From the NCBI GenBank assembly GCA_905182235.1, contig CAJJAM010000012.1, forward strand, positions 1-55,085: 55,085 nucleotides of DNA, given 5' to 3'. The stretch is from SAR86 cluster bacterium SAR86B. Its GTDB lineage: Bacteria > Pseudomonadota > Gammaproteobacteria > Magnimaribacterales > Magnimaribacteraceae. Both the position numbers and the translations under genes were made by a program. Numbering within the stretch: position 1 is the stretch's first letter; each line of letters opens with the position of its first letter. This document shows positions 43,253 to 49,480 of this stretch, one piece after another. A model generated the notes under the pieces. The model was not told the origin of the DNA. It searched no databases and saw only the letters and a program-made list of their open reading frames with translations.

Positions 43253-44506
43253 TTAGTAAATTCTACTAACTGATTCTTTAGCAGTAAACTCTTCTGGGTC
43301 TGCTCTTCTTAAACCCATTACCGTCCAAATATCCTCTAGAGCTTCAACAAAACGATCTATGTCTTCTTCTTCGTGTCTAGGAGATATGGTCACCCTAAAT
43401 CGTTCGTCGCCCTTAGGAACGGTTGGGAAGAAAACGGGCTGTATATATATTCCATGTTTTTCAATGAGCAAGTTAGCTGCTTGTTTGCAAAGTGCTGGGT
43501 CGTACAAATGTATAGGGATTATATGGCTATCGTTTTCTAGAAAAGGAATTCTCGCCTTTCTTAAGCCCTGCCTGATTCGATCAGAATTTATTCTAATATT
43601 AGCCCTCAGATCATCCGATTCTTTAGCCAGTTCAATGCTCTTTATGGAAGCAGCAGCTATGGAAGGGTTCATGGAAGAAGTAAAAATAAATCCTGGTGCA
43701 AAGCTTCTAATGTAATCAATTATGTCTGCATTAGCTGCTACGTAACCTCCCATTTGGCCAAAAGACTTTGATAACGTTCCGTTAATGATATCAATTCTAT
43801 CTTCAAGTCCTAGTTCAGCGGTAATGCCCCTTCCTTCCGGGCCATACAGCCCTACGGAATGAACTTCATCGAGGTAAGTTAGCGCATTGTATTCTTCAGC
43901 CAACGCAACAATCTTCGCTATTGGTGACCTCATGCCCTCCATAGAATATAAAGATTCAAAAACAATTAACTTTGGAGTATCAGCATTTGAAGTCTTAAGA
44001 AGTTCTTCTAAATGATCTGTATCGTTGTGCCTAAAAACGTGACAAATAGCATCAGCATTTTTTATACCCTGAATAAGAGAAGCGTGGTTAAGTTCATCAG
44101 AATAAACCTCGACACCTTCCAGGTTCTTGCATAACGTCCAAAGAGACGATTGGTTGGCTGTATAAGCTGACGGAAATAATAAGCTTGCTTCTTTCTTGTG
44201 CAACTCTGCTAGCAAAGTTTCTAGATCAACATGGTAAGTTGAGGTTCCTGAAATATTCCTTGTACCGCCTGATCCTGTTCCTAACTCATTAATAACATCT
44301 ATAGATACCTTTGTTACCTCTGGATGCTGACTTAGGTTTAAGTAGTCATTGCTGCACCAAACCTCTACTTCCCTTTCCCTACCTTCAAACCTTTCAGTTG
44401 CCTTAGGAAAACTGGATTGATTTCTGTTGATAGCCCTAAATTTTCTATAGAGACCTTGTGACTTAAGAGAGATTAGTTCGTCTGAGAAGAATTTTTTATA
44501 GTTCAT
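43253..44506 (-). CDS. hemA: 5-Aminolevulinate synthase (ALAS, C4 pathway)
   Basis: 417 residues of the alpha-oxoamine synthase family. [15 protein letters not shown], the substrate-binding [21 protein letters not shown] block (77-97, quoted in part), the PLP-ring D213 in [12 protein letters not shown] and the PLP lysine K247 in [13 protein letters not shown] are present. The N terminus [11 protein letters not shown] and [13 protein letters not shown] pattern, GGTRNISGT and the position inside a heme cluster favour ALAS over 8-amino-7-oxononanoate synthase or Kbl. It condenses glycine and succinyl-CoA. Most Gammaproteobacteria use glutamyl-tRNA (C5 pathway), so an alphaproteobacterial-type enzyme here is noteworthy. 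It is divergent from hemC. Confidence 0.88.
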
Positions 44507-44628: not shown

Positions 44629-46134
44629 TTGAAAACAATCAAATTAATCTCTAGAAAAAGTGATTTAGCTAAAATACAGGCTCATTTAGTCTCAACTGAG
44701 CTAAAGAATAAATTTCCTGATCTGGAAGTGGAACTGATTTTTAAATCTACTCTTGGTGACAATGATTTAACAACCCCTTTAAATAAAATGCCCGACATAG
44801 GGGTGTTTACTAGTGACATAAAAAAAGACTTGTTGTCTGGGAGAGGCGACTTGGCAGTTCATTCTTGGAAAGACCTTCCCATCGATACAGAACCGGGTAC
44901 TTTTATTTGTGGAACTCTTCAACGAGCAGATATGAGAGATATGCTTTTTTTAAAAAAGAGCAGCAAGAATAAAACTTTTTTGGAGATATTGTCTTCTTCA
45001 CCAAGAAGAGAGAAAAACTTAAGTAATTTTTTACCTCATGCCCTGCCTGGTGAACCTAATGGCATTTCTTTCCACGATGTTAGAGGCAATATCCAAACTC
45101 GTTTCACTAAATTGATGAAAGGAGATCGGGATGGTCTTGTTGTTGCAAAAGCAGCTATAGACAGAATTTTGAAAAGCCAAAAGGATGAATTTAAAGTTGG
45201 GAGAGAATTACTACGAGAAGCTCTAAAATCATTGAATTGGATGGTTCTTCCTTTGTCTGTAAACCCTTGTGCTGCAGCTCAAGGGGCTTTAGCTCTTGAA
45301 ATAAGAACTGAAGATAATGAATTGCGATCAATGATAGAAAGTATTTCAGATGTTCCTGCCTTTAAGCTGATAGAGGAAGAGCGACTGATTCTTAAATCTT
45401 ACGGCGGCGGTTGTCATCAAAAAATAGGTGCCAGCATTGAATCCTTTGAAATTGGTCAAGTTAAAACAGTTAAAGGCGAAACAGAGGATGGAGAGGAAAT
45501 AGATGAAAGAGTTTTTAAGCCAAAAAAAGAGGTAAAAGATTTTTTTGAAGATATTAAAAATAACTCATACTTTCCGCAAAATACAGGGGAGCAAATATTT
45601 TTTGAAAGAAAGCCCATCCCTGAAACAGATTCCATACTGAGGGACTTAAAAAATACCGGGGTTTATATAAGCCGATCTAATGCCTTGGATAATAAAATCT
45701 CTTTAGATGATTCAAATTGTGTGTGGGCAAGTGGCTTAGGAACATGGAAGACTCTTGCTAAAAGACAAGTGTGGGTTAACGGTTGCTCAGATAGCTTAGG
45801 TGAAAGAAATAGCCCAGAAGAGAATCCCTTTGAAGACATGAATTGGTTGAAACTATCTCATTCTGGCAATAAAGACGAGACCAAAGAAATCCTTGCAACT
45901 TATAATCTAAATCCTATTGATCTTGACCCTAAAATAAAAGAAAACACCCACTTTTACTGGATGAGCAGCACGGCATTTGAAAGGGCAATAAGTGTTTACC
46001 CGGAAATACTCAAGGCCAAGCACGCAACGGGGCTTGGCAAAACGTATGAAAAGATTCAGTCCTTAGCTCCCAACAAAGTTATGCCTTTTTTAAACTACGA
46101 AGACTGGCTCGCACAAATAGAGAAACACTCTTAA
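44629..46134 (+). CDS. hemC: Hydroxymethylbilane synthase fused to a HemD-like domain
   Basis: 501 residues, about 190 longer than plain HemC. The first ~280 residues are hydroxymethylbilane synthase: SRKSDLAKIQA, catalytic D82 in AVHSWKDLP, FHDVRGNIQTR, NPCAAAQGALALE, and the dipyrromethane-cofactor cysteine C262 in YGGGCHQKIGA. Residues ~345-500 resemble uroporphyrinogen-III synthase: VYISRSNALD, then WMSSTAFERAISVYPEI and AKHATGLGKTYEKIQSL, the usual HemD end pattern. A bifunctional HemCD would convert four porphobilinogens to uroporphyrinogen III. No separate hemD is in the cluster, which supports this. The start is TTG at 44629 with no strong ribosome binding site. Confidence 0.88.
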   Translation: MKTIKLISRKSDLAKIQAHLVSTELKNKFPDLEVELIFKSTLGDNDLTTPLNKMPDIGVFTSDIKKDLLSGRGDLAVHSWKDLPIDTEPGTFICGTLQRADMRDMLFLKKSSKNKTFLEILSSSPRREKNLSNFLPHALPGEPNGISFHDVRGNIQTRFTKLMKGDRDGLVVAKAAIDRILKSQKDEFKVGRELLREALKSLNWMVLPLSVNPCAAAQGALALEIRTEDNELRSMIESISDVPAFKLIEEERLILKSYGGGCHQKIGASIESFEIGQVKTVKGETEDGEEIDERVFKPKKEVKDFFEDIKNNSYFPQNTGEQIFFERKPIPETDSILRDLKNTGVYISRSNALDNKISLDDSNCVWASGLGTWKTLAKRQVWVNGCSDSLGERNSPEENPFEDMNWLKLSHSGNKDETKEILATYNLNPIDLDPKIKENTHFYWMSSTAFERAISVYPEILKAKHATGLGKTYEKIQSLAPNKVMPFLNYEDWLAQIEKHS

Positions 46135-46201: not shown

Positions 46202-47197
46202 ATGAAGCCATCTAGAAAATTTCCATTAACCCGATTAAGAAGAAATCGCCAAAGCGCGAATTTAAGAGACTTAGTTGCTGAAAATGCACTTTCGTCAGAT
46301 GACCTGATTCAGCCCATCTTTATAAAAGAAGGCTTGAAAGGGAAAGAATCCATCGAACCTCTTCCAGGCGTGAGCAGGCTTGGCTTGGATGTTCTTAACG
46401 AAGAAATAAGAGAACTAGAATCAGCTGGCATTAAAGCAATAGCCCTCTTCCCAGTTATCGATTCAAGCAAGAAAGATGACAAAGGCTCTGAGTCTTTAAA
46501 CGAAGACAACCTGGTGTCTCAAGCCATCAAACAAATAAAAGAAATGTCTGAGATGGTAATTATTTCTGACGTTGCCCTAGATCCCTACACCTCTCACGGT
46601 CATGACGGCCTTATCAATGCCGATGGTTATGTTGATAACGATTTAACTTTACCCGTTCTTACAGAGCAAGCCCTGGTTCTTGCAAAAGCTGGCGCTGACA
46701 TTATTGCGCCTTCAGACATGATGGATGGAAGAGTTAAATCAATCAGAGATGCATTTGAGGCCAAAGGCTACGTTAACACCCTGATACTGTCTTATGCGGC
46801 AAAATACAGTTCCAAGTTTTATGGACCCTTCAGGGAAGCTGTTGGTTCATCAGCAAATTTAGGCGTTGGCAGCAAAGACACATATCAAATGGATGTTTCC
46901 AACGTAAAAGAAGCGCTTCAAGAAGTTGCTATGGATATTGAAGAAGGAGCCGATATAGTTATGGTCAAGCCAGGAATGCCTTATCTGGATATTGTTAAAG
47001 CGGTGAAAGATGAATTTTCTATACCTACATTTGCCTATCAAGTCAGCGGGGAATACGCGATGCTTAAGGGTGCAATAGAAAAAGGCTGGCTCTCAGAGGA
47101 GGCCTTTATGGAATCTTTGCTTTGCTTTAAACGCGCAGGTGCCGACTGCATTTTGACGTACGCTGCTAAAGAAATAGCATTAGAACTTAATAAATAA
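46202..47197 (+). CDS. hemB: Delta-aminolevulinic acid dehydratase (porphobilinogen synthase), Mg-type
   Basis: 331 residues. The two active-site lysines are K201 in SYAAKYSSKFYGPF and K256 in MVKPGMPYLDI. The metal site 122-138 reads SDVALDPYTSHGHDGL: the zinc-binding cysteines of the E. coli-type enzyme are absent and replaced by Ala, Asp and Asp, as in the magnesium-dependent enzymes of Pseudomonas and Bradyrhizobium. It joins two aminolevulinate molecules into porphobilinogen. A perfect TATAAT lies 39 bases upstream of the ATG. It heads the run hemB-hemE-hemF-hemJ. Confidence 0.96.
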   Translation: MKPSRKFPLTRLRRNRQSANLRDLVAENALSSDDLIQPIFIKEGLKGKESIEPLPGVSRLGLDVLNEEIRELESAGIKAIALFPVIDSSKKDDKGSESLNEDNLVSQAIKQIKEMSEMVIISDVALDPYTSHGHDGLINADGYVDNDLTLPVLTEQALVLAKAGADIIAPSDMMDGRVKSIRDAFEAKGYVNTLILSYAAKYSSKFYGPFREAVGSSANLGVGSKDTYQMDVSNVKEALQEVAMDIEEGADIVMVKPGMPYLDIVKAVKDEFSIPTFAYQVSGEYAMLKGAIEKGWLSEEAFMESLLCFKRAGADCILTYAAKEIALELNK

Positions 47198-47208
47198 AAG
47201 GCCATTAA

Positions 47209-48231
47209 TTGTCTAATTCAAGATTTATAAATGCTCTGAACAGAAAGGCTCAAAGCACCCCACCCATATGGTTTATGAGGCAGGCAGGAAGATATCACAG
47301 CCACTATCAGAATTTAAAAAAATCTTATACGTTTGAAGAGCTGTGCAAGACTCCTAAGCTTGCGGCTGAAACGGCCATGGGCCCTATGGAAGAGTTTGAT
47401 TTTGATGTAGCCATTTTATTTAGCGACATTCTTTTTCCTTTGGAATCTCTTGGAATGGACTTAACTTATAATCCTGGGCCCATTTTTGGTTCTCATCTGA
47501 ATGAGACTAACTTAAATGAACTCATTACCAATAAAAATGCAATCGCGTCGCTTGAATTTCAAGGTGAGGCAATAGAGAGAACGCGGGAACGACTTCCAGA
47601 AGATAAATCCCTCATTGGTTTTATTGGAGGGCCTTGGACTCTAATCTCTTATGCATGCGGTTTGAGCAAAGCAACCGACACTCTTTCGCTTGATAGCTTT
47701 AAACTAAGCTTTCTTGAAGAATCCATCCTACCTCTTCTTGAAAAAAATATAGAGTTGCAGCTCAGAGCAGGTGCAGAAAACCTAATGATATTTGATTCCC
47801 TGGCACACCAGCTAGCCAGAGATGATTTGTCGATTTACTTAAAAAAAGTATTTTCTTCTCTGGTTAATAAGTATCCAGGGAAAATAGGTTATTACGCTAA
47901 AGACGGCGTAGATTACTCTTTAATTCTAAAAACTATCGAAGATGACAATGTAGACATAGCCGGATTGGGTGTGGATTCACATGAGAATATTGCACCTTTT
48001 TTTAAATCCACATCCAGGGGATTTATCCAGGGTAATTTTAGCGAACACTATTTAACACTACCCAAAGAAGAGTTCGTTGTTCATTTAGAGATGTATCTAG
48101 AAAGTATGGCAAAACTCAGCGATAAGGAAAGAGCTGGCTGGGTGTGCGGACTGGGCCACGGGGTTTTAAAAACAACCCCTCAGGAAAACGTTAAGGAATT
48201 TGTTAAACGAGCCAGAGAAGTCTTTTCTTAG
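47209..48231 (+). CDS. hemE: Uroporphyrinogen decarboxylase
   Basis: 340 residues. Family signatures are PPIWFMRQAGRYHSHYQNL near 18-36, ILFSDILFPLESLGMDL, and FIGGPWTLISYACG with CGLGHGVLKTTPQENVKEFV at the end. It decarboxylates uroporphyrinogen III to coproporphyrinogen III. The start is TTG at 47209, just 11 bases after the hemB stop; no in-frame ATG is near enough to preserve the N-terminal motif. Confidence 0.96.
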   Translation: MSNSRFINALNRKAQSTPPIWFMRQAGRYHSHYQNLKKSYTFEELCKTPKLAAETAMGPMEEFDFDVAILFSDILFPLESLGMDLTYNPGPIFGSHLNETNLNELITNKNAIASLEFQGEAIERTRERLPEDKSLIGFIGGPWTLISYACGLSKATDTLSLDSFKLSFLEESILPLLEKNIELQLRAGAENLMIFDSLAHQLARDDLSIYLKKVFSSLVNKYPGKIGYYAKDGVDYSLILKTIEDDNVDIAGLGVDSHENIAPFFKSTSRGFIQGNFSEHYLTLPKEEFVVHLEMYLESMAKLSDKERAGWVCGLGHGVLKTTPQENVKEFVKRAREVFS

Positions 48232-48237
48232 TCAATT

Positions 48238-49050
48238 ATGGATATAGAAGAAAAAAAGAAACTAGCTTCATCTTGGTTCAGGGAACTGAGAGACTCTTTT
48301 TGCAAAGAGTTTGAAGCTATTGATGGAAGTAAATTTGAAAGAAAACATTGGGATCATAAGTTTTCTGGTGGTGGTGAGATGAGCATAATGAAGGGTGATG
48401 TATTTGAAAAAGTTGGCGTTAACATCTCTACCGTGTCTGGTCAGTTTGGGGATGACTTTAAATCACAAGTTCAAGGCACTGAAGAATCTTCCGAGTATTG
48501 GGCCAGCGGAATAAGTCTGGTTGCTCACATGCATTCTCCTAAAGTTCCAGCCTTTCACTTCAACACCAGGTTTATAGTCACTGGCGATTCTTGGTTCGGT
48601 GGTGGCGGGGATATAACACCAACAATAGTTCCGAAAAAAGAAGTTGATTTCTTTCATGCTTGTATGAAAGAGGCTTGTGATAGCGCCGATGAAGATTATT
48701 ACCAAATCTACAAAGAGGCTTGTGATGAATATTTTTATCTTCCTCACAGATCAGAAGCCAGAGGAGAGGGCGGAATTTTTATAGATCATTTAAAAACAGA
48801 CTCCTGGAACGATGATTTTTCTTTCATCCAAGAAGTCGGCAAATCAACTCTCAAGGCAATTACAACGATTATTAAAAATCTCAAAGATGAATCGTGGACG
48901 GAAGAAGAAAAGGACCAACAACTAATTAAACGTGGGCGTTACGTAGAATTTAATCTTATTTGGGACAGAGGAACCACCTTTGGATTAAAAACGGGCGGAA
49001 ATATAGATGCCATTCTTATGTCTATGCCACCCAATGCAAAATGGAACTAA
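48238..49050 (+). CDS. hemF: Coproporphyrinogen III oxidase, oxygen-dependent
   Basis: 270 residues, about 30 shorter than E. coli HemF. Signatures are GGGEMSIMKGDVFEKVGVN, HMHSPKVPAFHFNTRF, WFGGGGDITP, the core LPHRSEARGEGGIFIDHL and RGRYVEFNLIWDRGTTFGL with GGNIDAILMSMPP at the end. It ends soon after this at NAKWN, so the last loop of the family is shortened; the catalytic part looks complete. It makes protoporphyrinogen IX with O2. It is 6 bases downstream of hemE. Confidence 0.95.
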   Translation: MDIEEKKKLASSWFRELRDSFCKEFEAIDGSKFERKHWDHKFSGGGEMSIMKGDVFEKVGVNISTVSGQFGDDFKSQVQGTEESSEYWASGISLVAHMHSPKVPAFHFNTRFIVTGDSWFGGGGDITPTIVPKKEVDFFHACMKEACDSADEDYYQIYKEACDEYFYLPHRSEARGEGGIFIDHLKTDSWNDDFSFIQEVGKSTLKAITTIIKNLKDESWTEEEKDQQLIKRGRYVEFNLIWDRGTTFGLKTGGNIDAILMSMPPNAKWN

Positions 49051-49054
49051 AAGA

Positions 49055-49480
49055 ATGAATACCTTTCTAGTTTTTAAGACAATTCATATTATTTCCGTAA
49101 TAACTTGGATGGCAGCATTATTTTATTTGCCAAGATTATTTGTGTATCACTCTACAAAAGAAATAGGATCAGATTCTTCTGAAACCTTTAAGGTTATGGA
49201 GTCAAAACTCCTGAAGATCATAGGCAATCCATCTCTTGTTTTTGTTTGGATCTCTGGTCTTGTTCTTTTAGGTTATAAAGGTCTAGAAATTTGGCTAGTT
49301 TTAAAAATGTTTCTTGTCATGGGCATGACACTTTTTCATTTATATCTTAATTTTTTAAGGAAGAGATTTGAGAATGATGCAAATGAAAAATCAGAAAAGT
49401 TCTTCAGGCTGATAAATGAATTGCCAACGATACTATTATTGATAATTGTTGTATTGGTTGTCTTCCAACCTAGATTCTAA
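49055..49480 (+). CDS. hemJ: Protoporphyrinogen oxidase HemJ
   Basis: About 141 residues with four membrane segments. It begins at ATG 49055 (MNTFLVFKTIHIISVITWMAALF), which places the conserved His10 and the tryptophan helix correctly; an upstream in-frame ATG at 49007 lies inside hemF and is unlikely. Other family features are LPRLFVYH, LKIIGNPSLVFVWISG, and LVLKMFLVMGMTLFHLYL. HemJ oxidises protoporphyrinogen IX to protoporphyrin IX and is a heme-dependent enzyme in other bacteria, mainly Alphaproteobacteria and Cyanobacteria. The stop overlaps by four bases the convergent MBL-fold gene. Confidence 0.92.
   Translation: MNTFLVFKTIHIISVITWMAALFYLPRLFVYHSTKEIGSDSSETFKVMESKLLKIIGNPSLVFVWISGLVLLGYKGLEIWLVLKMFLVMGMTLFHLYLNFLRKRFENDANEKSEKFFRLINELPTILLLIIVVLVVFQPRF

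Follow-up and report, generated by a model that had tools for sequence, protein, structure and literature searches.

A SAR86 hemC gene with a Leptospira-type C-terminal extension is predicted to encode a bifunctional HemCD

The gene at 44629..46134 of the window (the whole stretch of 55,085 nucleotides that was analysed) most probably encodes a bifunctional HemCD, in which the N-terminal part is HemC and the C-terminal ~160 residues are a uroporphyrinogen-III synthase; the probability of this reading was put at about 0.88. Bifunctional activity of the SAR86 protein is predicted by homology to a Leptospira enzyme of reported dual activity. The window derives from SAR86 (Gammaproteobacteria), and the genome to which it belongs is 1.06 Mb and 82.55% complete. 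The parts of the gene and the neighbouring heme genes are listed below.

44629..46134, plus strand: hemCD, fused hydroxymethylbilane synthase and predicted uroporphyrinogen-III synthase (ORF, 501 aa, TTG start)
44638..45327, plus strand: HemC domains, residues 4-233 (PF01379, E 3.3e-45, 154.6 bits against a cut-off of 22.1)
45412..45414, plus strand: Cys262 in GGGCHQKIG, at the site of the dipyrromethane-cofactor cysteine (aligned with the GGC of a solved HemC chain)
45649..46131, plus strand: C-terminal domain, residues ~341-501, predicted uroporphyrinogen-III synthase (shares homology with the tail of the Leptospira protein; dN/dS 0.029)
43253..44506, minus strand: 5-aminolevulinate (ALA) synthase of the C4 route, divergent neighbour (TIGR01821, 542.7 bits, cut-off 338.55)
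46202..47197, plus strand: hemB, porphobilinogen synthase (NF006762, 472.1 bits)
47209..48231, plus strand: hemE, uroporphyrinogen decarboxylase, Leptospira-like (PF01208, 225.1 bits)
48238..49050, plus strand: hemF, coproporphyrinogen oxidase (NF003727, 351.6 bits)
49007..49480, plus strand: hemJ, protoporphyrinogen oxidase (TIGR00701, 142.3 bits; PF03653)

The initial annotation had described an ORF about 190 residues longer than HemC. Its coordinates were confirmed, and the excess length followed from a comparison with six complete plasmid-borne HemCs of 302-314 aa (a seventh, L116, entered solely as its 246-aa match). The assignment of the N-terminal part to HemC was also obtained with TIGR00212 (HemC, NCBIfam), which scored 174.3 bits (cut-off 164). 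The C-terminal HemC domain, PF03900, gave no match in the window protein; among the 29 orthologues, 19 were matched at E≤10, with a best E of 0.00015. Cys262, which we take to be the dipyrromethane-cofactor cysteine equivalent to Cys242 of E. coli, was conserved in 29/29 fusions. The window protein was 92% identical to its SAR86 counterparts L002 and L039. In a search of genome contigs, a single relative was obtained, a SAR86 cluster MAG with 92% identity. A TTG start was present at the homologous position in 22 of 29 aligned rows and also in the Leptospira gene; this weak start is possibly kept on purpose.

The ~160-residue tail of the window protein had no Pfam match at E≤1 and no NCBIfam match. 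Likewise, PF02602 (HEM4) at E≤10 matched none of the 29 orthologues (the window copy and 28 relatives); HMMER filters remove most matches above ~0.1. When PDB sequences were searched with a profile of the tail (hmmsearch), two matches were returned, at E 0.94 and 0.97, both unrelated. No relative was found in viral contigs, and PHROGs gave a single match at chance level (E 0.18). For the window DNA, nothing was matched in Rfam at the gathering threshold, and promoter and terminator scans returned fewer sites than in shuffled sequence.

Based on a whole-protein tblastn search of plasmid records, the top match was from Leptospira interrogans, with 99% coverage, 39.5% identity and an E of 6e-105. 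The matched protein is WP_000086813.1, annotated 'bifunctional porphobilinogen deaminase/uroporphyrinogen synthase', and a BLASTP alignment of the two ran end to end with 208 of 526 aligned positions identical (40%). The whole protein matched 83 plasmid records, two of them from Leptospira; query coverage was at least 80% in two. When the tail alone was searched against 72,556 plasmid records, two matches at E≤1 were obtained, both from Leptospira (best E 3e-26), and the two tails shared 34% identity. The Leptospira precedent for a HemC/HemD fusion, cited in the initial annotation, thus proved to be the nearest relative identified beyond SAR86, with 40% identity from end to end. Dual activity of the L. 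interrogans fusion enzyme was reported in 2003, according to an excerpt of PMC8698207, and the available portion of PMC11426443 describes HemC and HemD of Leptospira as one bifunctional enzyme. The Leptospira protein was also not matched by HEM4 of Pfam, and the missing HEM4 match of the SAR86 tail is therefore no argument against activity. Among the titles and abstract openings listed in literature searches, none dealt with a HemCD fusion in SAR86.

The initial annotation had further held that the tail resembles uroporphyrinogen-III synthase at the pattern level, and at the sequence level this could not be upheld. Compared by hhalign with a HemD profile of 67 sequences, the tail reached a probability of 0.3%, which is not significant; against eight SAR86 HemDs it reached 0.7%. 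Our own alignment of tail and HemD profiles was at best marginal: with three gap settings, 29, 92 and 45 of 1000 alignments with shuffled columns attained its score. The reversed tail scored lower than the real tail at each setting. In an earlier alignment with 150 shuffles, 4 local and 22 semiglobal shuffles reached the real score. Rotated tails reached the local score of the 1000-shuffle alignment in 25, 24 and 25 of 33 cases, a control that is uninformative for the local score because rotation leaves the locally matching stretch whole. In the semiglobal mode of the earlier alignment, the scores of rotated tails were similar to that of the real order, an argument against a HemD match over the full length. 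In the sole local match, ATYNLNP...FYWMSSTAF and its surroundings in the tail were paired with HemD at, and ahead of, the D..iFTSaNAV motif, a pairing to be regarded as a lead only. Internal duplication was not significant in the tail (185 and 253 of 1000 shuffles reached the score), and in HemD, the positive control, 0 of 1000 shuffles did so. AlphaFold models, built from an alignment of only two sequences (the window protein and L039), reached pLDDT values of 36.4 and 30.1 and were poor because no usable alignment was available. By eye, the strand-like motif order VYISR, VWASG, VWVNG, WLKLSH, ATYNLNP, FYWMS, HATGLG looks like that of a shortened HemD.

By homology, the SAR86 protein belongs to the Leptospira-type HemCDs, with a tail that HEM4 does not match. 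It is conceivable, but unlikely, that this tail represents a separate kind of uroporphyrinogen-III synthase and not a HemD descendant, having either evolved independently or been rebuilt beyond recognition. Such an enzyme would carry out the inversion of ring D with ~160 residues, and in both Leptospira and SAR86, where it was seen here, it would occur solely in fusion with HemC.

The lack of significant HemD profile similarity would also suit a tail that extends HemC in a structural or regulatory role, with uroporphyrinogen III supplied by a separate enzyme that escaped recognition, such as a very divergent HemD elsewhere in the genome that PF02602 does not detect. To this the dual activity reported for the Leptospira relative, whose tail is homologous (excerpts of PMC8698207 and PMC11426443), stands opposed, as do the searches for stand-alone HemD. 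The initial annotation saw no such gene in the cluster and asked about the rest of the genome: the neighbours were indeed ALA synthase, HemB, HemE, HemF and HemJ, and PF02602 found nothing at E≤10 in the window genome. At 82.55% completeness, this absence is weak on its own. The same profile matched 14/14 control genomes at E≤10, 12 of them over the cut-off, and it exceeded the cut-off in 85 of 94 genomes sampled from the class and in 97 of 100 sampled from the phylum. Within the order (203 genomes), 54 genomes had a near full-length tail and 114 had HEM4 over the cut-off; none had both, and 35 had neither. With 0/54 tail-bearing genomes having HEM4 over the cut-off, the earlier proposal that the domain fused to HemC takes the place of HemD gained support, and the extension reading was judged improbable. 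The exclusion across the 203 genomes follows families (f1 and f3 versus f2 and f4) and may for that reason rest on very few independent events.

A smaller set of 61 genomes (the window genome and 60 relatives) was compared for the remaining genes. The full-length fusion was present in 29, of which 20 belonged to family f1 (genera g1, g6 and g7) and nine to f3; HEM4 was over the cut-off in 15, all from f2 and f4. ALA synthase (TIGR01821 over the cut-off) occurred in 29/61, the same 29 genomes as the fusion, and in every one it lay divergent from hemCD at a distance of ~100-125 bases. Glutamyl-tRNA reductase was found in 16/61, all f2 and f4, and HemE in 44/61. In 28 of the 29 fusion genomes hemE was downstream of hemCD on the same contig, at ~1 kb (2.4 kb in G008); in G022 it was on another contig. 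Ten of the 29 fusion genomes had HEM4 matches below the cut-off (10.6-16.8 bits, E 0.002-0.115). As candidates for a hidden HemD these were rejected in G008, G036 and G057 (3/10 fusion genomes scanned), where the match was to UvrB helicase. Beyond the order, the tail was in no sampled genome: the class sample of 321 gave two matches, both SAR86, and the phylum sample of 349 gave one, the window itself. Whole-genome searches for the tail covered the order, class and phylum of the window.

A separate observation concerns genera g2-g5 of family f1. All 12 of their genomes (G003-G006, G009, G010, G012, G013, G015, G016, G018 and G020) were without a HemCD match, HEM4 over the cut-off, ALA synthase, glutamyl-tRNA reductase and HemE, and heme synthesis was likely lost there within SAR86. 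These genomes are 51-93% complete and the cluster is one locus, so that gaps may explain some of the absences, and HemC was sought in them through the HemCD protein. All five were also lacking in G001, which belongs to the window's genus.

Purifying selection on the tail is strong. Between the window and its sister species G002, dN/dS (Nei-Gojobori) was 0.074 for the HemC part, 0.193 for the middle and 0.029 for the tail. Of 406 possible pairs, 36 had a whole-gene pS between 0.02 and 0.55; across these 36, which are not independent of one another, tail dN/dS ranged from 0.029 to 0.33. Twenty tail columns were invariant in 30 sequences including Leptospira; R349, D388, Y425, W444 and H465 are among the invariant residues. 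Its recurrence in 54 of 203 genomes of the order and its low dN/dS put the tail well beyond chance. These values stand against the idea that the tail is a decaying, non-functional remnant in a lineage that makes no uroporphyrinogen III, as does the fact that hemE, hemF and hemJ downstream of hemCD are open in the window. The missing domain match would agree with decay, as would an in-frame stop in one of 54 copies (a TAA in the HemCD tail of G727, at G727:C1:24516-25034); even so, we consider a remnant extremely unlikely.

Synonymous divergence changed sharply along the gene in some comparisons. Between L006 and each of L008, L011 and L015, the HemC part had a dS of 1.4-1.8 and the tail one of 0.23-0.26; between L004, L007, L012, L013 or L016 and the same three, dS was ~0.5-0.6 in the HemC part and above 1.6 in the tail (for the pairs printed). 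This shift suggests recombination inside hemCD between related species.

To place the HemC part, a tree was built from 45 rows and 307 columns, comprising 11 SAR86 fusions picked from the 29, Leptospira, eight separate SAR86 HemCs and 25 others. The SAR86 fusions and Leptospira formed a clade with 100/100 support on a long stem, apart from the other HemCs compared; the fusions were grouped among themselves at 82/85 only. The eight separate SAR86 HemCs did not form one group, the forks being weak. In a topology test, a grouping of the SAR86 HemCs without Leptospira was rejected (p-AU 0.00017). The tree program flagged one long row (Streptomyces), nine rows of unusual composition and a bootstrap short of full convergence.

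HemE has the same Leptospira affinity as hemCD, judging by identities: the window copy was 47% identical to Leptospira HemE and 28-34% to the HemE of three f2 genomes. A Sulfitobacter piece of 146 residues gave 38%, and identity did not exceed 31.5% in the ten matches listed from outside Leptospira, of 72 records matched. The window HemE scored 211.5 bits with TIGR01464, below the cut-off of 302.95. HemE scores with PF01208 were 301-388 bits in f2/f4 genomes and at most 249 in f1/f3. In the sister species G002, hemE was matched in two pieces (G002:C6:132051-133059), which may reflect a frameshift or an assembly error. HemB looks gammaproteobacterial, with 58.8% identity to Pasteurella versus 41% to Leptospira, and its best plasmid-record matches were gammaproteobacterial. 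ALA synthase was 48-49% identical to alphaproteobacterial and Parageobacillus copies, among the 12 matches listed of 705 records. For HemCD, the plasmid collection contributed only two Leptospira records among the matches. The cluster thus has the look of a mosaic, in which HemE is Leptospira-like, HemB gammaproteobacterial and ALA synthase most like its counterparts in Alphaproteobacteria and Parageobacillus among those matches. Downstream, the listed ORF of hemJ overlaps hemF, and hemJ homology begins at residue 18.

Since the HemC part by itself groups with Leptospira at 100/100, hemCD looks horizontally acquired and not locally fused, and one of its neighbours seems to have arrived with it. 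A local origin would have adjacent hemC and hemD genes of SAR86 merging, with the HemD part decaying or shrinking afterwards. The usual starting point for such a fusion does exist, with hemC adjoining hemD in 15/15 f2/f4 genomes with HEM4 over the cut-off. Against it are the Leptospira grouping on a long stem, the rejection of a single SAR86 HemC clade and the matching affinity of HemE, and we hold local fusion to be very improbable; the tree evidence carries caution on account of long branches and the composition bias flagged by the program.

In the preferred reading of a bifunctional HemCD, the N-terminal part would polymerize four porphobilinogens to hydroxymethylbilane on the dipyrromethane cofactor, and the C-terminal ~160 residues would invert ring D and close the macrocycle as uroporphyrinogen-III synthase. 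Unless that synthase acts, hydroxymethylbilane closes by itself to uroporphyrinogen I, and heme is made onward from the III isomer only (excerpt of PMC8698207). With genes for ALA synthase, HemB, HemE, HemF and HemJ beside hemCD, a uroporphyrinogen-III synthase is therefore needed, and the tail is the best candidate because its homologue is reported to perform the step. Linkage of the two parts could give the unstable bilane a shorter route from one to the other, the channelling that the initial annotation had proposed for a reduced HemD. In f1 (three genera) and f3, HemCD would replace separate hemC and hemD, and it would be a xenologue of the Leptospira enzyme within a compact heme cluster that starts at ALA synthase.

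Pipelines based on Pfam HEM4 would score the SAR86 fusion genomes as having no uroporphyrinogen-III synthase and may label them as heme auxotrophs, a label that the present evidence does not bear out. Though conserved, the tail domain is unmatched by the Pfam and NCBIfam models used, a gap that a tail-derived profile would close. Within one ocean order the early heme route runs either through glutamyl-tRNA reductase and separate HemC and HemD or through ALA synthase and HemCD, and it seems to be missing in some genera. The order is thus a useful case of pathway replacement through transfer.

Among known systems, the kind of enzyme proposed here is already known from Leptospira, and the SAR86 protein would add a member. 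The two share full-length collinear homology, the same tail and the lack of a Pfam HEM4 match, the Leptospira protein being longer (542 aa versus 501 aa). In both clusters hemB directly follows the fusion and hemE lies further downstream. Unlike SAR86, Leptospira uses the C5 route (available portion of PMC11426443): its cluster has glutamate-1-semialdehyde aminomutase, hemN and hemG, whereas that of SAR86 has ALA synthase, hemF and hemJ. The gene before hemCD in Leptospira (L040 8141-9007), annotated as hypothetical, matches GlutR_N (E 9.8e-8) and is probably a divergent glutamyl-tRNA reductase. Canonical HemD (PF02602) is like the tail in the reaction predicted for the latter, and its gene adjoins hemC in f2/f4 of SAR86. 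It differs in length (212-239 residues in eight SAR86 HemDs versus ~160) and in its clear internal duplication, of which the tail has none that is significant, and profile similarity between the two was not significant. The CobA-HemD and HemC-CobA-HemD fusions described in an excerpt of PMC11237513 likewise join successive tetrapyrrole enzymes; they include a CobA methyltransferase part, whereas the SAR86 protein consists of HemC and the tail only.
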